Of a stretch of DNA of 64,000 nucleotides, positions 271 through 58,065 are shown piece after piece. This stretch comes from Paraflavitalea soli (GTDB lineage Bacteria; Bacteroidota; Bacteroidia; Chitinophagales; Chitinophagaceae). Within the stretch, counting starts at the first letter, position 1, and each line of letters begins with the position of its first letter. Location of the stretch: assembly GCF_003555545.1 (NCBI RefSeq), contig NZ_CP032157.1, forward strand, positions 4,096,546-4,160,545. The letters run 5' to 3'. The position numbers and the translations under genes were made by a program. The notes under the pieces were generated by a model. It was not told the origin of the DNA, did no database searches, and saw only the letters and a list, made by a program, of their open reading frames with translations.

Positions 271-2505
271 TTAAGCCATTTTCAGTTCTTTACCCAGCTG
301 CCATTTTTTAGAGAGTTGTTGAATTGTTTTTTTATAGGCTTCCAGGCCGGCTTGCTCTTGTTTGATAAAGGTATTATCAGATAGTTTTCCCACCACTTTA
401 TTCATAGCTGCTGTGGTTTCGTAGACCATTTTACGGAAAGGATTGTTGTAATCCTTCGCACGTGAATCGTAGATACCTTTTACCATCCATTCTTTGGTAC
501 TGATGCTTTGCTGCAAGAGTTGTTGCAGGATGGGGCCCGTTGCCTTTTTGAGGTTGATGCCGTGTACTTCTTTTAAAGCAGCCAAGGCATGGGACAATTT
601 TTCCTGTGGATAGCTCTGCGACTGCTGTTCATAAAAGGCGTGGATATCTTTCCAGCTTTTAACACGGCCGGTGTGGATCTGTTTGATGAGTTTATCGAGG
701 GCAGCACGTTCGATCAGCTGGCCACCTGCATTTATCCAGGGAGCAACCTGGGGTTTTGCAGGTAAAGAATCTGTTAACTGATCGAGTGATCTGATATTAT
801 TACGATGGGTGTGATCCAACAGTTGCTGTACTGCATAATAAGCCACGAGCTCTCTGAAAATACGGTAAGCTGCGGGCACTTTAATGAGTACTACGGGACG
901 GGTACTATTTTCAAAACCTTCGGCCAGTATTTCCAGCTCACGTACTACAGGATCATTATTATCGAGCAGTTTTTTGCCGATGGCAGTAATGTCTTCTTTC
1001 GTTAATTTTTTGTGGTTGCCTTCTCTTGTAAGCCATGCTTTGCCAGTGTATAGTTGCAAGAGGGAAAGTGCCTGTATGATCTCATTTACAGAGTCAGGAG
1101 CCAGGAAGTTGAATTCTATGTGCTGCGTTTTATCGATCCTTTTATCGCGGTCCACATACTTCCAGGAATTGCGGGCGAGTGCGTACATATTGTACAGGAA
1201 CCAGTAAGCAGGCATTACCACAAGGCGATTGTTGGTAACATCATTACTTACGAGGGAAAATGGCAAGGGGATATCGAGCTCCACGGGAAAGTCGCCTTTG
1301 GCCAGGATGGTAAAAGTGGCAAACCGTGAATTGTGTTTGATGCTAACGCAGAGGCCGGGCCAGAATCCACGCCCTGCTATCAATTCGCCATCGGGGCTGC
1401 GGGAATTGTGGTTGGAGCCAATGGTGGCTCCTGCGGCCATATTGCTTTGGCCCTGTACGAGGGCAGCGCAAAGGAAAGAGTTGTTGTGGTGTTGTTCATG
1501 TGCCGGATAGATCAGGGAATTGAGCACTTCGCAACAGGATATGGTGGAGTTGTCGCCTAAATAGGAATTGATCAACCGGGCGCCATACTTCAACTGGGAG
1601 TGGGAAGCCAGGAAGAAGCGGACTGCTTTAACGCCGTAGAACAGGCGGCAGCCATAACCAATGATACCATTTACCAGTTCGCACCCCTCTCCTACCTGGG
1701 TGGGAGCTTCGGCGGAAGAATTGATGGTCACATTCTTGATCTTGTTGGCACCCTTGATGTAGGCATCAGAACCAACATTCACATCTTTCACGATGCGGCA
1801 ATTTTTAATGACGGTGCGATCGCCAATGGAACCGTAATAACCGCGGCGGGTATCAAATCTTTGCTGGGTAAACAGTTTTAGTTTATCCTGCAGCAGGGTA
1901 TCATCGCGGAACTGGGTCCATAACCAGGCATCGCCGGGCAACATGCCATCGAAAGGAATGATGCGGCGGCCTCCGTTCTCATTGCACACTTCCATCCAGA
2001 TGCGTATATTTTCTTCCTCGCCCTCTTTAAGGATACCATTACCAAACTTGGCATGGTCGGTGGCATCAATTTCATTGACATTGACCAGGATGACCTCACT
2101 GCCGGTAATATAGTGTGATATGAAGTTGACATTATCTACGACCACATTGTCACCAAAGTCGCAACTGATAATGGTACTGTTGTAGAGGCCAACCGGCCGG
2201 CGCAGGTTATGAAACTCCAGGTAATAGGGTTCCAGTTTGCCTATGCGCACGAGGCCAAAGAACTTACAATTCTGCACCAACTCAGGATTGAAGGCATTGG
2301 ATACGAGGATATGGTTCCAGTTGTCAGAGGTATTGCGGTTGCGGACCAGCACTTCAATTTCGTAGGCGGTGAGCTGCCGGTAATGAATACCGTTCTCATT
2401 TTGCTGGTTGCGCAGGTAATATTCATCTTTTCCTTTGGGAATGTATTCCGCAGGAATAAAGTGATACCCTAAAGTATGTAAAGGGCTTTTCTTAATAACA
2501 TTCAT
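271..2505 (-). CDS. DUF4954 family protein (left-handed beta-helix-like)
   Basis: This is a 744-residue protein of unknown function that I recognise as the DUF4954 family, found mainly in Bacteroidota and spirochaetes. From about residue 85 to 400 it has short reiterated turns of the type seen in hexapeptide/left-handed beta-helix proteins (for example ISCDFGDNVVVDNVNF and the series IGDRTVIKNC, VGSDAYIKGA, VGEGCELVNG, LGDNSTISCC). The C-terminal 300 residues are helical and end in a KxWxxG segment. There is no signal peptide, so it is probably cytoplasmic. It lies 61 bp downstream of glmS on the same strand, with only a GAGCTGCGAGC repeat between them. The beta-helix resembles that of sugar-nucleotide acyltransferases such as GlmU, which would fit glmS as a neighbour, but that link is inference. 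The ATG at 2503-2505 is the first in frame. Confidence 0.8.
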   Translation of the reverse strand: MNVIKKSPLHTLGYHFIPAEYIPKGKDEYYLRNQQNENGIHYRQLTAYEIEVLVRNRNTSDNWNHILVSNAFNPELVQNCKFFGLVRIGKLEPYYLEFHNLRRPVGLYNSTIISCDFGDNVVVDNVNFISHYITGSEVILVNVNEIDATDHAKFGNGILKEGEEENIRIWMEVCNENGGRRIIPFDGMLPGDAWLWTQFRDDTLLQDKLKLFTQQRFDTRRGYYGSIGDRTVIKNCRIVKDVNVGSDAYIKGANKIKNVTINSSAEAPTQVGEGCELVNGIIGYGCRLFYGVKAVRFFLASHSQLKYGARLINSYLGDNSTISCCEVLNSLIYPAHEQHHNNSFLCAALVQGQSNMAAGATIGSNHNSRSPDGELIAGRGFWPGLCVSIKHNSRFATFTILAKGDFPVELDIPLPFSLVSNDVTNNRLVVMPAYWFLYNMYALARNSWKYVDRDKRIDKTQHIEFNFLAPDSVNEIIQALSLLQLYTGKAWLTREGNHKKLTKEDITAIGKKLLDNNDPVVRELEILAEGFENSTRPVVLIKVPAAYRIFRELVAYYAVQQLLDHTHRNNIRSLDQLTDSLPAKPQVAPWINAGGQLIERAALDKLIKQIHTGRVKSWKDIHAFYEQQSQSYPQEKLSHALAALKEVHGINLKKATGPILQQLLQQSISTKEWMVKGIYDSRAKDYNNPFRKMVYETTAAMNKVVGKLSDNTFIKQEQAGLEAYKKTIQQLSKKWQLGKELKMA

Positions 2506-2527
2506 AGCTGATCTTGTTACTGGTTAA

Positions 2528-2566
2528 GCTGCAAGCTACGAGCTGCGAGCCATGAGCTGCGAGCAG
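2528..2566. repeat. 14-nt-period GAGCTGCGAGC repeat between glmS and the DUF4954 gene
   Basis: Two and a half imperfect copies of the unit nATGAGCTGCGAGC fill the space between the glmS stop codon (2567) and the DUF4954 start. The same unit recurs at 9194-9228 and in degenerate form at 243-263. Confidence 0.7.
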
Positions 2567-4402
2567 TTATTCTACTGTTACACTCTTTGCCAGGTTTCTC
2601 GGTTTATCAACATCCAGTCCTTTGGCTACACCAATATAATAGGCCAGGAGTTGCAATGGAATGACGCTGAGCAGGGGGGCCATGAGTTCGTCGGCTGCAG
2701 GTACAACAATGACATCATCGGCCATTTTGCTGATGATCTCATCGCCTTCGGTAATGACGGCAATGACCTTGCCTTTGCGGGCCTTGATCTCCTGGATATT
2801 GCTCACGATCTTTTCGTGGTAGGAATCTTTGGTGGCTACAAAAACAACGGGCAGGGTTTCATCTACCAGGGCGATGGGGCCGTGCTTCATTTCAGCAGCG
2901 GGATAGCCTTCGGCGTGTATATAGGAGATCTCTTTTAATTTGAGGGCGCCTTCAAGGGCGATGGGGAAATTGTATCCACGACCCAGGTACAGGAAGTCTT
3001 TGGCGTCTTTGTATTTTTCGGCCAGTTTACGGATGGCTTCGCTGTCTTTCAGGGCAGCGGGCACTTTCTCGGGGATTTCCTGCAGCTCATTGAGCAAATG
3101 CATAAACCGTTTGTTATCTATGCTGCCTTTTTCATGGGCAATTTTGAGGGCTATCATGGTGAGCACGACCACCTGGGCTGTGAAAGCTTTGGTGCTGGCC
3201 ACGCCAATCTCCGGGCCTGCATGGGTATAGGCGCCTGCGTGGGAGATACGGGCAATGGATGAGCCGACCACATTGACCACCCCAAAAATGGTGGCGCCCT
3301 GTTCTTTGGCTTTTTCAATAGCCACCAGGGTATCTGCGGTCTCTCCGCTTTGTGATACGGCAATGATGACATCGCCTTTATGAATAACAGGGTTGCGGTA
3401 ACGGAATTCGGAGGCATATTCGACCTCCACGGGAATGCGGCAGAGTTCTTCTATTACGTATTCTGCTACCAGCCCGGCATGCCAGCTGGTGCCGCAGGCC
3501 ACAATGATAATGCGGGAAGCATTTTTAAGCTGTTCAATATTGTTCTGAACACCTGCCATGGTGATGGTTCCGGCAGCAGCATCGAGGCGACCACGAAGGC
3601 AATCGAAAATGGTGTGCGGCTGTTCAAATATTTCTTTGAGCATGAAATGGTCGTAACCGCTTTTTTCAATAGCGGCGAGTTCCATATCGAGCTTTGTGAT
3701 GAAAGGAGTTACCTTTTCATTTCCCAGGTTTTTGAGGATGAGCTCATCGGGACGGATGATCGCCAGCTCATAGTCATTAATGTACACTACTTCTTTGGTA
3801 TACTCAATAATGGGAGAAGCATCGGAGGCCAGGAAATGCTCTCCCTTGCCAATGCCGATCACCAGGGGGCTTCCTTTGCGGGCTGCAATCAATGTATCGG
3901 GATTGTCCTGATCGATCAATACGATCACATAGGCGCCTGTAACGCGTTTCAGGGCGATGCGTACGGCTTCTTCCAGTCCGCAGTCGTTGTTAAGCTGAAT
4001 GTCCTCAATAAACTTGAGAAGGACTTCGGTATCTGTATCGCTGGAAAAGGTGTACCCCTTTTTCTGGAGTTCGCCTTTCAGTTGTGTATAGTTTTCGATA
4101 ATGCCATTGTGGATCATGGCCAGTTTTCCGTTGGCAGAGATATGTGGGTGCGCGTTGCGGTCGCTGGGTTCACCATGGGTAGCCCATCGTGTGTGACCAA
4201 TGCCGGCATTGGCATGCAGGTCTTTCCCTACGAGGCTTTCTTCGAGTTCTGCTACTTTACCTTTTTTCTTGTACACCTTCAGGCCGCTATTCAGGAGTGC
4301 CACACCGGAGCTATCGTATCCACGATATTCCAATCGTTTTAAACCTTTGAGGATAACAGGATATGCTTCTTTAGGACCGATATAGGCTACAATTCCACAC
4401 AT
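2567..4402 (-). CDS. glmS: Glutamine--fructose-6-phosphate aminotransferase (isomerizing)
   Basis: This 611-residue enzyme makes glucosamine-6-phosphate from fructose-6-phosphate and glutamine, the first committed step to UDP-GlcNAc for peptidoglycan and lipopolysaccharide. The start MCGIVAYIG supplies the catalytic Cys2 of the N-terminal nucleophile glutaminase, and GHTRWATHG follows. Two SIS sugar-isomerase domains occupy the C-terminal half (CGTSWHAG; SQSGETADT; the lysine-bearing ALEGALKLKEISY). The protein ends with DKPRNLAKSVTVE, the universal GlmS tail. Its length matches the family. The 5' region contains a TTTCGGGTT-type repeat (4410-4446) and no obvious glmS ribozyme, which is a Firmicutes feature. 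The gene probably starts a two-gene unit with DUF4954. Confidence 0.97.
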   Translation of the reverse strand: MCGIVAYIGPKEAYPVILKGLKRLEYRGYDSSGVALLNSGLKVYKKKGKVAELEESLVGKDLHANAGIGHTRWATHGEPSDRNAHPHISANGKLAMIHNGIIENYTQLKGELQKKGYTFSSDTDTEVLLKFIEDIQLNNDCGLEEAVRIALKRVTGAYVIVLIDQDNPDTLIAARKGSPLVIGIGKGEHFLASDASPIIEYTKEVVYINDYELAIIRPDELILKNLGNEKVTPFITKLDMELAAIEKSGYDHFMLKEIFEQPHTIFDCLRGRLDAAAGTITMAGVQNNIEQLKNASRIIIVACGTSWHAGLVAEYVIEELCRIPVEVEYASEFRYRNPVIHKGDVIIAVSQSGETADTLVAIEKAKEQGATIFGVVNVVGSSIARISHAGAYTHAGPEIGVASTKAFTAQVVVLTMIALKIAHEKGSIDNKRFMHLLNELQEIPEKVPAALKDSEAIRKLAEKYKDAKDFLYLGRGYNFPIALEGALKLKEISYIHAEGYPAAEMKHGPIALVDETLPVVFVATKDSYHEKIVSNIQEIKARKGKVIAVITEGDEIISKMADDVIVVPAADELMAPLLSVIPLQLLAYYIGVAKGLDVDKPRNLAKSVTVE

Positions 4403-9244: not shown

Positions 9245-10675
9245 TTATTTATAGAACCGATACTTTACGGAGAAATAGATGCCGTAGCTGGTAAGGTCCA
9301 GTTTTCCATAGCCCAATCCTTTCATCGGGATCTTCAGGTAAGGTTCGGCCTGTAGTGAGAAACGCTTGTTGAGGGCGCGTTCAAAACCACCTGAAAGGTT
9401 AAGGATGGAGAATGGATAGTTGCTGGTAGAATCTCTATCCCACATAGGGGTTTGCATACGGTTGCCATTATAGGTATAATCGTAGGCATACGATTCACCG
9501 GTCATGATGTAGGTAGATGCACCTGCACTGGCAAACCAACGTTGTTTTTTATTGACTGAGAAATCGTACCGTACATTAAGAGGTATTTCAAACATCTTGC
9601 AGTAACCCCACACGGAATGGAGATCAGTATTTCGCAACCAGCCGGTCTTAGTCCAGTCCTTGCCATCAGCGGTATAATTTTTCCGGGTATACAGTAAGCC
9701 TGTATTCACGGACCAGCGGTTGGAGAAACGATAGCCAATCTGGAGACCTGCATTGTAGCCGGCCTTATCCATGTCGGTAAATTTCACATTGCTCATGTCG
9801 GGACCTGCTACGAGACCTATTTCAAATCCTTTGTTTTGCTTGTTGTCTTTTTTCTTTGAGGCCGTCTTTTGGCCAGGGCCGGCATTGCTATCGGGAGCAA
9901 TAGTAAGCTTAGGGGCATTGATGGAGCCAATAGCTCCTGCCTTTATACCGTTCCATGAAACGATACTCGCTTTGGGCTCACGTCCTTGTTGTGTAGTTTC
10001 TTCGGGGATCGGCAGGGGATTGTTTTCTCTGAATGATGATTGGCTGGCAAGACCCTGTTTACCTTTTCGTGCAGAGGATGTTTTAGCTATTGCTGACCGG
10101 ATGGGTTGTTCTTTGTTCTTTTTATTACCGGCTATGGTTTGCTGTTTAATTGTGGTAGCGGAGGACTTGTTGTTATTATTTTCAGCCGCTGTGCCGGGCT
10201 CTTTGGCAGGTACCCTGGCTGTTGATGCAGGATTACCCGAAGCAGGTGTTGTGCTGCTGTTATCATCGGTCTGTGTTGATCCGGGCGTTGCCTGATGCTG
10301 TGCATCAGCGGTTGTTGTAGGTATAGTTGTTGGGGCTGCTTGCTCAGTATGAACACCGGATGTCGAAGCAGGCGTTACTGGTTCGTTATTATTTTGATTG
10401 TTGTTAGCAGATGGTACAGTATTTGTTCCGGTTACAGCAAGATTGGTATCTGATCTTTTACCGGTCATAGTCCACAACAAACCACCGCCTGCCAGCAGTA
10501 CAATAAGGAACAGCCAGAACAGGAAGCGCCTGCGCTCCTTGTCCTCTTTGAGGGGCAATTCCCTGTTGAGCCGGTTTTCAAGCGCTTCCCAGCCTGATGT
10601 GTTTTGCTCCACATCAAATTGGTCAGCAGCTTCCCTGCTCATCCGGTCAAGGTCGTTATCATTGAGGGGATACAT
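9245..10675 (-). CDS. Inner-membrane-anchored outer-membrane beta-barrel protein, sigma-linked (putative transenvelope anti-sigma/sensor)
   Basis: This 476-residue protein has an unusual plan: an acidic cytoplasmic-type head (1-46) with a W-x2-LE-x3-NREL helix, a basic stretch KERRR, one membrane helix (about 51-70), a Thr/Ser/Asn/Gln/Pro-rich linker (71-282), and a C-terminal domain (283-476) of alternating aromatic beta-strands ending in YFSVKYRFYK. The end looks like the PorT-type outer-membrane barrel family. There is no cleavable signal peptide. Its start overlaps the end of the ECF sigma gene by 17 bp, so translation is probably coupled. By position and head shape it may hold the sigma factor, as anti-sigma factors do, while its barrel sits in the outer membrane; this is inference. 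A near-identical plan occurs at 22956-24518. Confidence 0.8.
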   Translation of the reverse strand: MYPLNDNDLDRMSREAADQFDVEQNTSGWEALENRLNRELPLKEDKERRRFLFWLFLIVLLAGGGLLWTMTGKRSDTNLAVTGTNTVPSANNNQNNNEPVTPASTSGVHTEQAAPTTIPTTTADAQHQATPGSTQTDDNSSTTPASGNPASTARVPAKEPGTAAENNNNKSSATTIKQQTIAGNKKNKEQPIRSAIAKTSSARKGKQGLASQSSFRENNPLPIPEETTQQGREPKASIVSWNGIKAGAIGSINAPKLTIAPDSNAGPGQKTASKKKDNKQNKGFEIGLVAGPDMSNVKFTDMDKAGYNAGLQIGYRFSNRWSVNTGLLYTRKNYTADGKDWTKTGWLRNTDLHSVWGYCKMFEIPLNVRYDFSVNKKQRWFASAGASTYIMTGESYAYDYTYNGNRMQTPMWDRDSTSNYPFSILNLSGGFERALNKRFSLQAEPYLKIPMKGLGYGKLDLTSYGIYFSVKYRFYK

Positions 10676-11249
10676 ACACGTTGTACTGCGTTTTATTCAA
10701 CAATAGTTTTCTTAGGTTATCACGGGCTTTTGATAAGTTGGACTTTGACGCACCTACTGATATACCCAGCACTTTAGCAATTTCCTCATGGCTCAATCCT
10801 TCAATCACAAACAAGTTAAACACTGCTCTGTAGCCGGGTGATAATAAACGGATAGCTTCTACTATTTCTTTATAGGATAAAATGTCGATACCAGTCTCGC
10901 CATGATCTGGAATGGATTCGGATTCAGTATTCAACACATGCCCACTGACGGATGCATTCATTTTGCGATAATGGTCAATACAGGTATTGACCAGGATACG
11001 CTTGAACCATCCTTTGAGGGAAAGTAAGGTATCTTCCTGACGATTTTCATCAAACTGGTGTACATTCTTAAACAGTTTGACAAAACCTTCGTTCATGATC
11101 TCTTCAGACTCTTCCTGGGCATTGGTGTAACGGTAACATATTTTCATAGCAAACCCGCGGAGCAGGTAATAAAGCTCCTTTTGGCTGTTACGGTCATTTT
11201 GGCGACAGCCGTTCAACAGGGCAGAAATTTTCGGGTTATCTGCGAGCAA
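10659..11249 (-). CDS. RNA polymerase ECF-type sigma factor
   Basis: This 196-residue protein has region 2 at about residues 25-90 (ELYYLLRGFAMKICYRY, then EIMNEGFVKLFKNV) and region 4 at about 125-185 (YRAVFNLFVIEGLSHEEIAKVLGIS, SNLSKARDNLRKLL). It should direct RNA polymerase to a small regulon controlled by its overlapping partner. No ATG is available: an in-frame TAA lies five codons upstream and the first internal ATG falls inside region 2, so the TTG at 11247-11249 is the likely start. A 14-bp perfect palindrome lies 11 bp upstream of it. The gene heads a two-gene unit. Confidence 0.93.
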   Translation of the reverse strand: MLADNPKISALLNGCRQNDRNSQKELYYLLRGFAMKICYRYTNAQEESEEIMNEGFVKLFKNVHQFDENRQEDTLLSLKGWFKRILVNTCIDHYRKMNASVSGHVLNTESESIPDHGETGIDILSYKEIVEAIRLLSPGYRAVFNLFVIEGLSHEEIAKVLGISVGASKSNLSKARDNLRKLLLNKTQYNVYVSPQ

Positions 11250-11274: not shown

Positions 11275-11369
11275 ACTTCTTTAATAAGTTACAATATATT
11301 TACTGAACTCCCGATAATACGGATTGCATTGCCGCCTGGTTGCCTAGCTGTCTATTTTCTTTTATTTAT

Positions 11370-22955: not shown

Positions 22956-24518
22956 TTATTTTTTCAATAATACAGTGGCACGTAAACCTACAGACCATAA
23001 ATGCTGACCGGTAGAATACTCTTTCTGCAGCAAGGGACTGATATTGTAACGCATAACGGGGCCTATGGACAAGGGATGGGCCGACTGGGAAAACAGTTGC
23101 ACATTAAAACCCGTAGCAGCAACCCATTGTACTTTGTTGAAGAGTGTATTGTCTTTATAATAAACCCCACCCAATCCATCATAATGCAGTGCATTGGTGT
23201 TGAGCAATTTTGAAACAGAGAAGCCGGCATCCCATGTAATGGGTAAACGTTTTCCCTTATTCAGCTGGGTATGCAAGGTTACAGGCAACTCAATAAAGTG
23301 GTAGCGGTTAGTGTATTCCTGGGTGTTATTGGCGTCATAATAGGACGATACCAGCTGCGAAGTGGAAGGCGCCCGGTTGACGGTCCTGTTGTTGTTGACC
23401 TTGGTACCAACAACCTGGCGTGCGCTCAGGTAGGTATATTGAAGTCCTACTGATAAACTTAAGCGTTTCGACAATGTACGTCGGGCAAATCCTCCAATGG
23501 AATAAGCAGGTCCCATAGAGAGGGAAGATGCTTTATTGACTGGCCGCGGAAACTGCGGGGCCATGGAAATAGCATTGTTGAAATTGGGTGATGCCAGATC
23601 AGCCACAGGAGAATTGCCACTTTTCAGGAAACCAAACAATCCTTCTTCGGTAACGCCTGAGTAACCACCTTCTGCCTGTACACCAAACTGCCATTTGGAA
23701 GCTCCTTTTTTCTTTTCAGGCTGTTTCGCTTTTACAACGGTGGCTGGTGTAGCTGGTAGGGCGGCGATTGTTGCTGTGCTGTCTTTCGCCAGGCTATCAA
23801 CAGGTATTACCTGGGCCAGGCTGCTATCGGCGGCGGGCACTATAGTGGCCATGGCTGTTGAATCCTCAACAGGCTGCCTGGTATCGTTGCCGGTTATTGT
23901 TTCAATATCAGTGTTTTGCTCTTTGTTGACTACCGGTTCCTGTACCGGAGTAGCCGGTTTATGTTTGACAGCCAGGGGTACAGCAGATGGTTGTTGTTTG
24001 ATCCTGGCAGGTTTCTTTATTGGCTGCTTCGCCAGCGCAGGTGCTGGTAGCTTGTTTTCGGTGTTGAGGTCTTTGCTCTTTACCGATGGGTTGGCAGCCG
24101 ATTGGGTAGCTGGCTGTTGACCGGCAGCTGCATGACTGTTATGAGAAGGATCAGGCGTTGGTGTTGTTTCGCCGGTGGTTGCTTTGCTGGCTGTAACCGG
24201 CTCATTTATTGGTGAATCAGTATTGGCTTGTGTTTGTGTAGATCCTTTTGTCGATAGCTTATTATTTGGTGTGGCAGAAGAGGAAGGAACAGCTTGTTTT
24301 ACCAGATCCTGTGTTGCAGGCCCGGAAGATTGGGTCATGGCAAAATAGCCACCTGCGCCCAACATCAGGAGGGCTATGGGCAGCCATAATATCATGCGGC
24401 GGCGGCGTTTATCCCTTCGGATGTTTTTCTCCACCTCCGTCCAGACAGCATCGGATGGACGCAATTTTAATTGCTCCAGCCTGACCTGTACCTGTTTCTC
24501 AAAATCATGGTCGGACAT
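22956..24518 (-). CDS. Inner-membrane-anchored outer-membrane beta-barrel protein, sigma-linked (second copy of the plan)
   Basis: This 520-residue protein has a charged cytoplasmic-type head (1-41) containing LRPSDAVWTEVEKNIRRDKRRRR, a single membrane helix (about 42-62), a Thr/Pro/Ala/Ser/Lys-rich linker (63-275), and a C-terminal barrel-like domain (276-520) beginning WQFGVQAEGGYSG and ending LWSVGLRATVLLKK. There is no cleavable signal. Its gene overlaps the ECF sigma gene by 14 bp. The plan, the gene order and the linker length (213 residues, against 212 in the protein at 9245-10675) repeat the first locus, although the linkers do not align by eye. It may be a one-protein link between outer membrane and sigma factor; this is inference. 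Confidence 0.8.
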   Translation of the reverse strand: MSDHDFEKQVQVRLEQLKLRPSDAVWTEVEKNIRRDKRRRRMILWLPIALLMLGAGGYFAMTQSSGPATQDLVKQAVPSSSATPNNKLSTKGSTQTQANTDSPINEPVTASKATTGETTPTPDPSHNSHAAAGQQPATQSAANPSVKSKDLNTENKLPAPALAKQPIKKPARIKQQPSAVPLAVKHKPATPVQEPVVNKEQNTDIETITGNDTRQPVEDSTAMATIVPAADSSLAQVIPVDSLAKDSTATIAALPATPATVVKAKQPEKKKGASKWQFGVQAEGGYSGVTEEGLFGFLKSGNSPVADLASPNFNNAISMAPQFPRPVNKASSLSMGPAYSIGGFARRTLSKRLSLSVGLQYTYLSARQVVGTKVNNNRTVNRAPSTSQLVSSYYDANNTQEYTNRYHFIELPVTLHTQLNKGKRLPITWDAGFSVSKLLNTNALHYDGLGGVYYKDNTLFNKVQWVAATGFNVQLFSQSAHPLSIGPVMRYNISPLLQKEYSTGQHLWSVGLRATVLLKK

Positions 24519-25065
24519 ACGTTTCGTTTTTTGTTTCCATATTTTGCTTTCTCAACCAGGTGATGAGCAAAGCACGGGCACGGGCATATTGTGAACGGGA
24601 AGTGCCTTCGTTGATACCGAGCATTTTCCCGATTTCTACATGTGAAAAACCCTCCACCGCATGGAGGTTAAAAATAGTCTGGTATCCGGTTGGTAACTGT
24701 CGTATTAGTTCTGCCAGGTCTTTGGCAAGCAGCTTTACTTCAGGATTATCAGCCGACACTGGATGCAGGCTCGTGTCGAAGTAAGCGAGGTCGGTTTGGT
24801 AGCGGCTGTTCTTCTTGAGGTAATTGAGGGCCGTATTGACCATAATACGCCGGATCCATCCCCCCAACTCGCCTTCAAACTTATATTGGTCCAGGTGTTT
24901 GAATACTTTAATAAATCCTTCCTGTAGTACATCTTCGGCATCGGTCATAGACTTGGTGTACCGGTAGCAAATACCGAGCATCCCCTCGGCAAAATGCTCG
25001 TAGAGCTGTCGCTGGGCTTCCGGTCGCCCCTTTAAACATTCTTTAACCAGCCGATTATAGTCCAT
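24505..25065 (-). CDS. RNA polymerase ECF-type sigma factor
   Basis: This 186-residue protein has sigma region 2 (ALGICYRYTKSMTDAEDVLQEGFIKVFKHLDQY-like segment, about 28-65) with the core-binding DAEDVLQEGF motif, and region 4 (TGYQTIFNLHAVEGFSHVEIGKML, then SRSQYARARALLITWL). It heads a four-gene unit: barrel protein, LVIVD lipoprotein and small barrel protein. It resembles the sigma at 10659-11249 in both regions, and the two loci probably derive from one ancestral module. An ATG at 25063-25065 is in place. A near-match to the -7 box (AACCTTTG on the minus strand) lies about 27 nt upstream. Confidence 0.94.
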   Translation of the reverse strand: MDYNRLVKECLKGRPEAQRQLYEHFAEGMLGICYRYTKSMTDAEDVLQEGFIKVFKHLDQYKFEGELGGWIRRIMVNTALNYLKKNSRYQTDLAYFDTSLHPVSADNPEVKLLAKDLAELIRQLPTGYQTIFNLHAVEGFSHVEIGKMLGINEGTSRSQYARARALLITWLRKQNMETKNETYVRP

Positions 25066-56752: not shown

Positions 56753-57388
56753 CTATTGCTCCAATTCAACCAGGTAGCTTTCGAGCTCCTGCAGGTTCTT
56801 TTTCAACAGGTCATTCTTGCTGTCCCTGAAGAGTTGTAGCTTTTTTGCCAGCAGTACGAGTGCAGCAATGATCACTACGGGGATGACTGTAAGGCTCAAC
56901 CCTTCTGCCAGGCCCCGATGTTCAATAACCCTGGGTAAGAAAGTGAAAGGGAAAGTGATACCGGCGATAAAATAACACCACCATACCTTTCTGCTCATTA
57001 CCAAATGCTGGTCATTTACATGGATCACTTTGCGGAGGCTGGTAGCGAGGTTGTCGCGGCTAAGTTGTACGTTGCTGATATTCCTGTAAACCTTCCATAG
57101 CAAGACGGCAAATGTGAAGCAGGTAATGCCCTGTATAAACAAAGGAATGTAAAACACCGGCTGTTCATAATCAAAAGCATTGCCAGCGATGCAGGCGGCA
57201 AAAAAGAAGGTATAGAACAGGAAGAGGGCTGCCAGGGCGAGGTTCTTGCGACTCATGGCTGTCAATGTGGAGCCCGACCGTTCGCTGATCATGGACAGCA
57301 CGAGTTGCTCACTCAGTGTTTTTTGGGCGACCCATTTTGCATCGAGGGCTTTCCAGGCCATCTGTAGTTCTTCAAAATTCGTTTGCAT
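56753..57388 (-). CDS. Four-helix membrane protein overlapping sigma gene (putative anti-sigma)
   Basis: This 211-residue protein has a soluble head of about 45 residues, four membrane helices (about 48-68, 80-102, 135-153, 160-182) and a helical C-terminus (SKNDLLKKNLQELESYLVELEQ). Its start overlaps the ECF sigma gene by 17 bp, the arrangement of sigma/anti-sigma pairs. The head (ELQMAWKALDAKWVAQK) could contact the sigma factor. No ZAS zinc motif (HxxxCxxC) is seen. No other family is recognised. Confidence 0.7.
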   Translation of the reverse strand: MQTNFEELQMAWKALDAKWVAQKTLSEQLVLSMISERSGSTLTAMSRKNLALAALFLFYTFFFAACIAGNAFDYEQPVFYIPLFIQGITCFTFAVLLWKVYRNISNVQLSRDNLATSLRKVIHVNDQHLVMSRKVWWCYFIAGITFPFTFLPRVIEHRGLAEGLSLTVIPVVIIAALVLLAKKLQLFRDSKNDLLKKNLQELESYLVELEQ

Positions 57389-57878
57389 ATACTGTTAGTA
57401 TTTTTTCCAGTTTACTTTTGATCCTGTTGAGCTTTACGCCCACATTGTTGTTGCTGATACCGGCAATGGCCGCTATCTCATTGTAGGTACATCCATCGAG
57501 GTGCAGCAGGATCATGGCTTTTTCTATGGCGGATAATTGTTCGATGGCCTTGTACAAGTGCTTTACTTTTTCATCATCCCCACCCAGGGAAGCCGGGTCG
57601 GGAATATCAATGCCCGCTTCGGCGAGGGATACCTTGTGGGGGCTTTTGACGGCCTTCCTGAAATTGGATATGGCGGTATTCAGAGCCACCCGGTACAGCC
57701 AGGTGGAAAACTGCGCCTCCTGCCGGAAACTGCCATAGCCTTTCCACAATTGCAGCACGATCTCCTGGAATAGGTCCCTCCTGTCTTCGGGATCCTGGCA
57801 ATAGATGTTACAGACCTTGTAGATCATGCCGATATGCCGGTTTATGAGGGCAACAAACTCTGCTTCCAATAATGCCAT
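57372..57878 (-). CDS. RNA polymerase ECF-type sigma factor
   Basis: This 168-residue protein has sigma region 2 (NRHIGMIYKVCNIYCQDPEDRRDLFQEIVLQLWKGY-like segment, about 12-50) and region 4 (LSAIEKAMILLHLDGCTYNEIAAIAGIS, then GVKLNRIKSKLEKIL). The DRRDLFQEI motif is the core-binding helix. The start was taken at the ATG at 57878; an upstream TTG would add six residues. It overlaps the four-helix membrane-protein gene. It is less similar to the two other sigmas here than they are to each other. Confidence 0.93.
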   Translation of the reverse strand: MALLEAEFVALINRHIGMIYKVCNIYCQDPEDRRDLFQEIVLQLWKGYGSFRQEAQFSTWLYRVALNTAISNFRKAVKSPHKVSLAEAGIDIPDPASLGGDDEKVKHLYKAIEQLSAIEKAMILLHLDGCTYNEIAAIAGISNNNVGVKLNRIKSKLEKILTVYANEF

Positions 57879-58065
57879 TTGAATAGTTAATCGCAATAAG
57901 GGCTGAAAACTTACAGGATTCCCGCTATTTTTTTAAATTAACCTGCCGGGCAGCCTGCGCCGGTGTAACAAAGCTCCACAATTGGATACTAATGGAGGAC
58001 TATGGCCGCCTGGCGGTTGTGGGACAATTTATATTAACTTTAAACTTACTAAAAGTAACCGCTCC

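Follow-up and report, generated by a model that had tools for sequence, protein, structure and literature searches.

A candidate dual membrane-spanning anti-sigma factor and its ECF sigma factor in Paraflavitalea soli and other Chitinophagaceae

Can a signal that arises at the outer membrane be delivered to an ECF sigma factor by a single polypeptide? In the FecR/FecI systems, the outer-membrane signal reaches the ECF sigma factor through three proteins, one of which is a TonB-dependent transducer. RseA, which responds with sigma-E to outer-membrane stress, is a membrane anti-sigma factor with a single helix and only a periplasmic domain beyond it, with no barrel. The question is raised by a gene pair in a 64,000-nucleotide stretch (the window) of the P. 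soli genome, an 8.44-Mb single contig. The first gene, which we describe as 'Das'-like, encodes an ECF sigma factor of 196 aa with a TTG start (10659-11249, reverse strand). The second, 'Dma/Reo'-like, encodes a trans-envelope anti-sigma-like protein of 476 aa (9245-10675, reverse strand).

Pfam analysis assigned Sigma70_r2 (8.5e-12) and Sigma70_r4_2 (4.5e-16) to the sigma factor, and among the 25 matches listed in its NCBIfam scan the general model TIGR02937 alone exceeded the cut-off. Among named records, the closest one found with the sigma factor, at 94% identity, is Paraflavitalea sp. CAU 1676 (Chitinophagaceae; L033). The two ORFs share positions 10659-10675, so that the first bases of the partner lie inside the sigma gene; this is the 17-bp overlap claimed in a previous sequence-only reading of this DNA. 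Upstream of the pair lies a gene for a DUF4403 protein and downstream, on the other strand, one for a SET-domain protein. No FecR domain was identified in the Pfam scan, which agrees with the earlier suggestion that the signal may pass without separate FecR/TonB-receptor parts. Whereas the FecR/FecI route involves three proteins, the P. soli pair would use one polypeptide, and neither of its immediate neighbors is a TonB-dependent receptor. Like RseA, the 476-aa protein is predicted to be a single-helix anti-sigma factor, but RseA has no barrel.

Four segments can be distinguished in the 476-aa protein. The head (residues 1-46; 10538-10675, reverse strand), predicted to be cytoplasmic, is modeled by AlphaFold2 (AF2) with helices at residues 6-19 and 29-39, and the first 50 residues contain 9 K/R and 13 D/E. 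It is followed by a single membrane helix (residues 51-71; 10463-10525, reverse strand), preceded by a K/R-rich stretch, which corresponds to a hydrophobic stretch at 51-69 (KD 2.2) and to an AF2 helix at 46-71; the hydropathy analysis found no second stretch above threshold anywhere in the protein. Residues 72-275 (9851-10462, reverse strand) form a disordered tether rich in T, A, S, N, P and K and devoid of Cys, with pLDDT mostly below 50 (approximately 37-51 per ten-residue block between residues 71 and 270). The C-terminal segment (residues 280-476; 9248-9838, reverse strand) is predicted to be an eight-stranded beta-barrel; it matches OMP_b-brl_2 (1.3e-11) and OMP_b-brl (6.9e-10) within residues 280-474. 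Two sets of database matches were discarded: NCBIfam matches to GltJ and RodZ, far under the cut-off and located over the low-complexity linker, and eight PDB profile hits that cover the membrane helix and linker only.

The AF2 model, with a whole-chain mean pLDDT of 69.6 and a pTM of 0.50, was built from 44 rows, one for the 476-aa protein itself and the others for 43 partners out of the 51 from loci L033-L087; eight were excluded as cut, short or of doubtful start (L036, L046, L049, L067, L072, L073, L075 and L082). It contains eight long strands between residues 283 and 473 with pLDDT of approximately 86-98. Based on Foldseek searches against the PDB, the top-ranking structures were OmpA, NspA, a Legionella porin and Ail, while OmpX and OmpW appeared at ranks 30 and 41; TM scores for these small barrels were 0.55-0.71 by target length, with 11-16% identity. 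The sequence-only reading had described a charged head, one membrane helix at about residues 51-70, a low-complexity linker and a barrel-like C-terminus, and each of these is recovered here. In particular, the structure prediction of the whole protein that it proposed as a check gives the C-terminus a confident barrel fold rather than a non-barrel one.

The same division is seen in conservation. Mean pairwise identities among the 44 rows amount to 0.45 (head) and 0.40 (barrel), compared with 0.25 (helix) and 0.12 (linker, residues 75-276). The linker varies from 125 to 284 residues (median 213.5); aliphatic and aromatic residues make up 14.9% of it, and Cys is essentially absent. Since the linker has low identity while head and barrel are conserved, the tether is kept as a tether and not as a sequence. 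The conserved two-helix head precedes the membrane helix, and its positions D10, A16, A17, W29 and L36 are invariant or nearly so in the 44 rows. In the barrel, the fourth long loop (residues 451-460; window 9296-9325) is, unlike loops 1 to 3, conserved nearly as well as the strands, with G455 and G457 invariant or almost invariant. This loop may be a functional site, placed on the outer face if known small barrels are taken as a guide.

Barrel proteins normally require a cleaved signal peptide, which suggests another way of reading the internal helix: as a late signal peptide, after which the chain would be cut, so that only the barrel would reach the outer membrane and the head would be left as a membrane-bound or soluble inhibitor. 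The other barrels of the same genome provide a control for this possibility. We identified 20 OMP_b-brl_2 matches genome-wide and sorted the proteins by the strongest hydrophobic stretch in their first 110 residues. For 17 of them this stretch starts by residue 21 and resembles a signal peptide, as the late-signal reading would have it for barrels in general. The remaining three carry a charged head followed by a stretch starting at residue 42-52: the 476-aa protein, another one encoded in the window (22956-24518), and a protein located at 6.8 Mb (L144; below the Pfam cut-off). In the 476-aa protein the stretch lies some 50 residues from the N-terminus and is modeled as a 26-residue helix; no AxA is found near it, and of the 44 rows 9 contain AxA at any point of the inspected stretch. 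We consider a late signal peptide highly improbable.

All three proteins with a head and an internal helix are encoded directly behind an ECF sigma gene of the same orientation; the two genes overlap by 17 bp in the first case and by 14 bp in the second, and are 74 bp apart in the third. By contrast, none of the other 17 barrel genes follows any of the 47 sigma matches of the genome on its own strand within 40 kb. The one that comes closest, at 6,293,721, is separated by 970 bp from a sigma match of opposite orientation. For the next two, likewise in opposite orientation, the distances are 2.9 and 5.1 kb, and for all others they exceed 20 kb. The second pair in the window, approximately 12 kb from the first (22956-25065), consists of an ECF sigma gene of the same type (24505-25065, reverse strand; 186 aa) overlapped by 14 bp by the gene of a 520-aa protein (22956-24518, reverse strand) with a head, a membrane stretch at 42-60, a linker and a barrel match (OMP_b-brl_2, 8.1e-7); its AF2 model, of low confidence (mean pLDDT 49.9), is only suggestive. 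Structure prediction, fold search, conservation and the same-genome control together support the predicted trans-envelope anatomy, in line with the earlier proposal that one polypeptide spans inner membrane, periplasm and outer membrane.

The search of related genomes confirmed that the arrangement is real and conserved. Among 117 genomes of the family, including that of P. soli, 71 contain a match at E <= 0.001, some of them to the barrel or the head only; the contig search with the single protein as the query found no relatives. The sigma and partner genes overlap by 8-20 bp in 27 of 31 loci (L001, L002 and L004-L032, two of them in the P. soli genome). The longer overlaps of L007 and L015 are due to the script's choice of an upstream start, and no sigma gene was detected by it in L009 or L013. 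Additionally, 51 of 55 loci (L033-L087) encode, behind the sigma factor, a partner that has a head plus a membrane stretch; these loci had been picked by sigma similarity and are not a random sample. The exceptions are L061 and L081, with short frames in the partner's place, L084, with an interrupted sigma frame, and L087, whose sigma gene runs off the contig. Loci from other families (L088-L090) also encode partners with a head and a membrane stretch.

The sequence-only reading had suggested searching Bacteroidota for the domain order, and in the phylum sample 43 of 148 genomes contain sigma matches at E <= 1e-35. Of 29 partners examined (L162-L190), a barrel was matched in 12 at E <= 0.01, in six of them over the curated cut-off. 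Sixteen have neither a barrel nor a PKD/CHU_C match, eight of these being short (224-263 aa), and one (L175:2051-3361) has PKD and a weak CHU_C match with no barrel. Pfam undercounts barrels in this set, since L164, which has no Pfam barrel, is the site of a match to the 476-aa protein (7e-35, residues 142-474). In the Flavobacteriales locus L089 (1612-2472), a CHU_C type IX secretion signal domain (1.8e-12) takes the place of the barrel; the L089 and L175 partners are likewise head and membrane-stretch proteins behind ECF sigma genes. A narrow literature search returned nothing on type IX signals combined with anti-sigma factors. No natural sigma-Dma fusion of the published Dma3 type was found among the phylum-sample sigma matches listed, whose frames are 289 aa or shorter.

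Other partners were found within the P. soli genome, in which the sigma profile has 47 matches at E <= 1e-5. We inspected the partners of 20 sigma genes besides the two window pairs: those of L143, L145, L146 and L148 carry a single membrane stretch and match no Pfam model, and that of L150 has HEAT repeats and a hydrophobic stretch under threshold. Because related sigma factors pair with head and membrane-stretch proteins with no recognized barrel, the barrel is not needed for pairing in general. By eye, a proline-rich head-like motif is repeated two times in the L142 partner (548-1471) and three times in the L147 partner (2451-3365) before the membrane stretch.

These partners also bear on whether the 476-aa protein is an anti-sigma factor at all. 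It could instead be an outer-membrane product whose gene overlaps that of the sigma factor for co-expression only, with a head that does something else, and the head indeed matches no Pfam model. Nevertheless, N-termini that contain W and look alike by eye follow related sigma genes even where no barrel is recognized, and published relatives with the same layout are reported to repress their sigma factors. This alternative appears highly improbable. The co-variation of the two proteins was also analyzed. Among the 44 loci, sigma distances correlate with those of the head (r 0.77), the barrel (0.69) and the linker (0.61); the partial correlation is 0.55 for sigma and head given the barrel and 0.34 for sigma and barrel given the head, and none of 2000 permutations reached 0.55. 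Since permutation leaves shared ancestry in, these correlations lend weak support to a contact between head and sigma.

The dual membrane-spanning anti-sigma class was described in 2022 (PMC9308784) and reportedly also in a 2024 PNAS paper. In B. thetaiotaomicron, anti-sigma factors with this layout, each a single polypeptide, reportedly control the sigma factors with which they are paired, and the consequence of Dma2 loss is reported to depend on Das2 (PMC13088901). As described there, Dma1/Das1 and Dma2/Das2 share an N-terminal anti-sigma domain, a helix, a long disordered tether, a C-terminal barrel and an adjacent ECF sigma factor; judged by this described layout, the 476-aa protein has the corresponding membrane helix, tether, barrel and neighboring ECF sigma gene. 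The Dma family is further defined by a partner sigma factor of the ECF21 group and by activation of that sigma factor when the anti-sigma protein is lost. The EcfO-Reo systems of Phocaeicola vulgatus and B. fragilis, according to PMC9308784 and PMC13114119, also consist of a sigma gene followed by that of an anti-sigma factor predicted to cross the periplasm and to end in an outer-membrane barrel. The P. vulgatus anti-sigma factor was reported in 2022 to regulate its sigma factor, and both an antibacterial toxin and a BamA inhibitor were reported to induce the matching pair (PMC9308784). Reo is described as extending through all five compartments (PMC13114119).

The anatomy of the P. soli pair matches that of the published Dma/Das and EcfO-Reo systems, a class already described in gut bacteria (Bacteroides, Phocaeicola). 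The hosts differ, Bacteroides in the case of Dma/Das and a member of the Chitinophagaceae in that of P. soli, both within Bacteroidota. The output also differs: NigD_N has no match in the P. soli genome, while the Bacteroides control matches, and an output shared with Das1/NigD is therefore ruled out for P. soli. The EcfO-Reo systems show the same contrast, the NigD output being known from Bacteroides. Our analysis extends the one-protein trans-envelope anti-sigma factor to the Chitinophagaceae with an internal control, in which 3 of 20 barrels are tied to sigma factors. Added here are a census of the family, the control within one genome, a promoter-like element (see below) and the relatives with another C-terminus, although parts of this may be described already.

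We conclude that the P. soli pair is very probably a dual membrane-spanning anti-sigma factor with its ECF sigma factor, of the Dma/Das or Reo/EcfO type. The head would hold the sigma factor at the cytoplasmic face of the inner membrane, to which it would be anchored by the one helix; the tether, of approximately 200 residues, would cross the periplasm, and the eight-stranded barrel would sit and sense in the outer membrane. By analogy with the published systems, a change in the barrel, whether caused by a ligand, damage or failed assembly, would free the sigma factor through a pull, a conformational change or proteolysis, and the freed sigma factor would then transcribe further targets as well as its own operon, the latter from a GCAACC-16-CGTA promoter.

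Release by regulated proteolysis, as known for RseA and RsiV, is a variant compatible with this explanation: the periplasmic tether would be cut, and an RseP-type M50 protease would then cut the helix, freeing the head with the sigma factor. The genome has one Peptidase_M50 match, and a long disordered tether should be an easy protease target. Nevertheless, M50 matches occur in all 14 control genomes, so that their presence says little, and at a linker identity of 0.12 no shared cleavage motif is apparent. On balance, we give this variant slightly less than an even chance. With regard to the dual membrane-spanning pair itself, the barrel could also be a built-in assembly gauge, i.e., a BAM client tied covalently to the head, whose failed folding or retention would be the signal and whose sigma factor would mainly refill its own operon. 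We regard this idea as rather unlikely; if true, the protein would be a one-molecule reporter of outer-membrane biogenesis, and the CHU_C relatives could likewise report on the type IX export route.

Upstream of the sigma gene we identified a putative ECF promoter, GGCAACC-N16-CGTAT (11317-11344, reverse strand), 67 bp before the TTG start. The strict element, GCAACC-16 bp-CGTA, is present upstream of sigma in 52 of 58 loci, these being the window and L033-L090 without L086, whose upstream sequence is missing (the distant sigma factors L091-L111 were excluded). Spacers of 15-18 bp were permitted, and all 52 have 16 bp. Letter shuffles of the same upstream stretches gave the pattern 9 times in 11,600. 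The element is missing from L060 (CGTC for CGTA), L081, L084, L088, L089 and L090. By eye, the sequences on either side of it show no alignment from one main group to the other. In the family sample (27 loci of L004-L032 with a sigma start, some of which repeat genomes of the first set), 11 have the strict element, 6 a 15-bp spacer, 2 CGTT and 8 none. The element is rare outside the family (1 of 29 phylum-sample loci), and it is absent upstream of the 10 other related sigma genes examined in the P. soli genome; nor was it found before the sigma gene of the second pair. ECF promoters have the position and spacing of the GCAACC-16-CGTA element, and this fit suggests that the sigma operon is probably autoregulated through it.

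The strict pattern was also tried as a guide to a regulon and rejected for the P. soli genome, where its 6 places are close to the 5 of the reversed control, so that no wider regulon is shown. One of the 6 is the operon itself; three of the other five lie 24-55 bp before ORFs of 486, 240 and 116 aa, which are unconfirmed. In seven relatives, 25 places were found versus 12 in the control, 6 of the 25 being the operon. By way of the promoter-like element, autoregulation and the regulon can be tested directly in an organism with no NigD_N match.

Two further observations concern sigma genes. TTG is the first available sigma start, by mechanical choice, in 27 of the 29 loci with a sigma gene among L001-L032; a conserved weak TTG start could keep the sigma factor below its anti-sigma factor. 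Elsewhere in the window (56753-57896), an ECF-type sigma match (57387-57848) overlaps by 17 bp the gene of a 211-aa partner; as this partner has four hydrophobic stretches, the pairing is of another kind.
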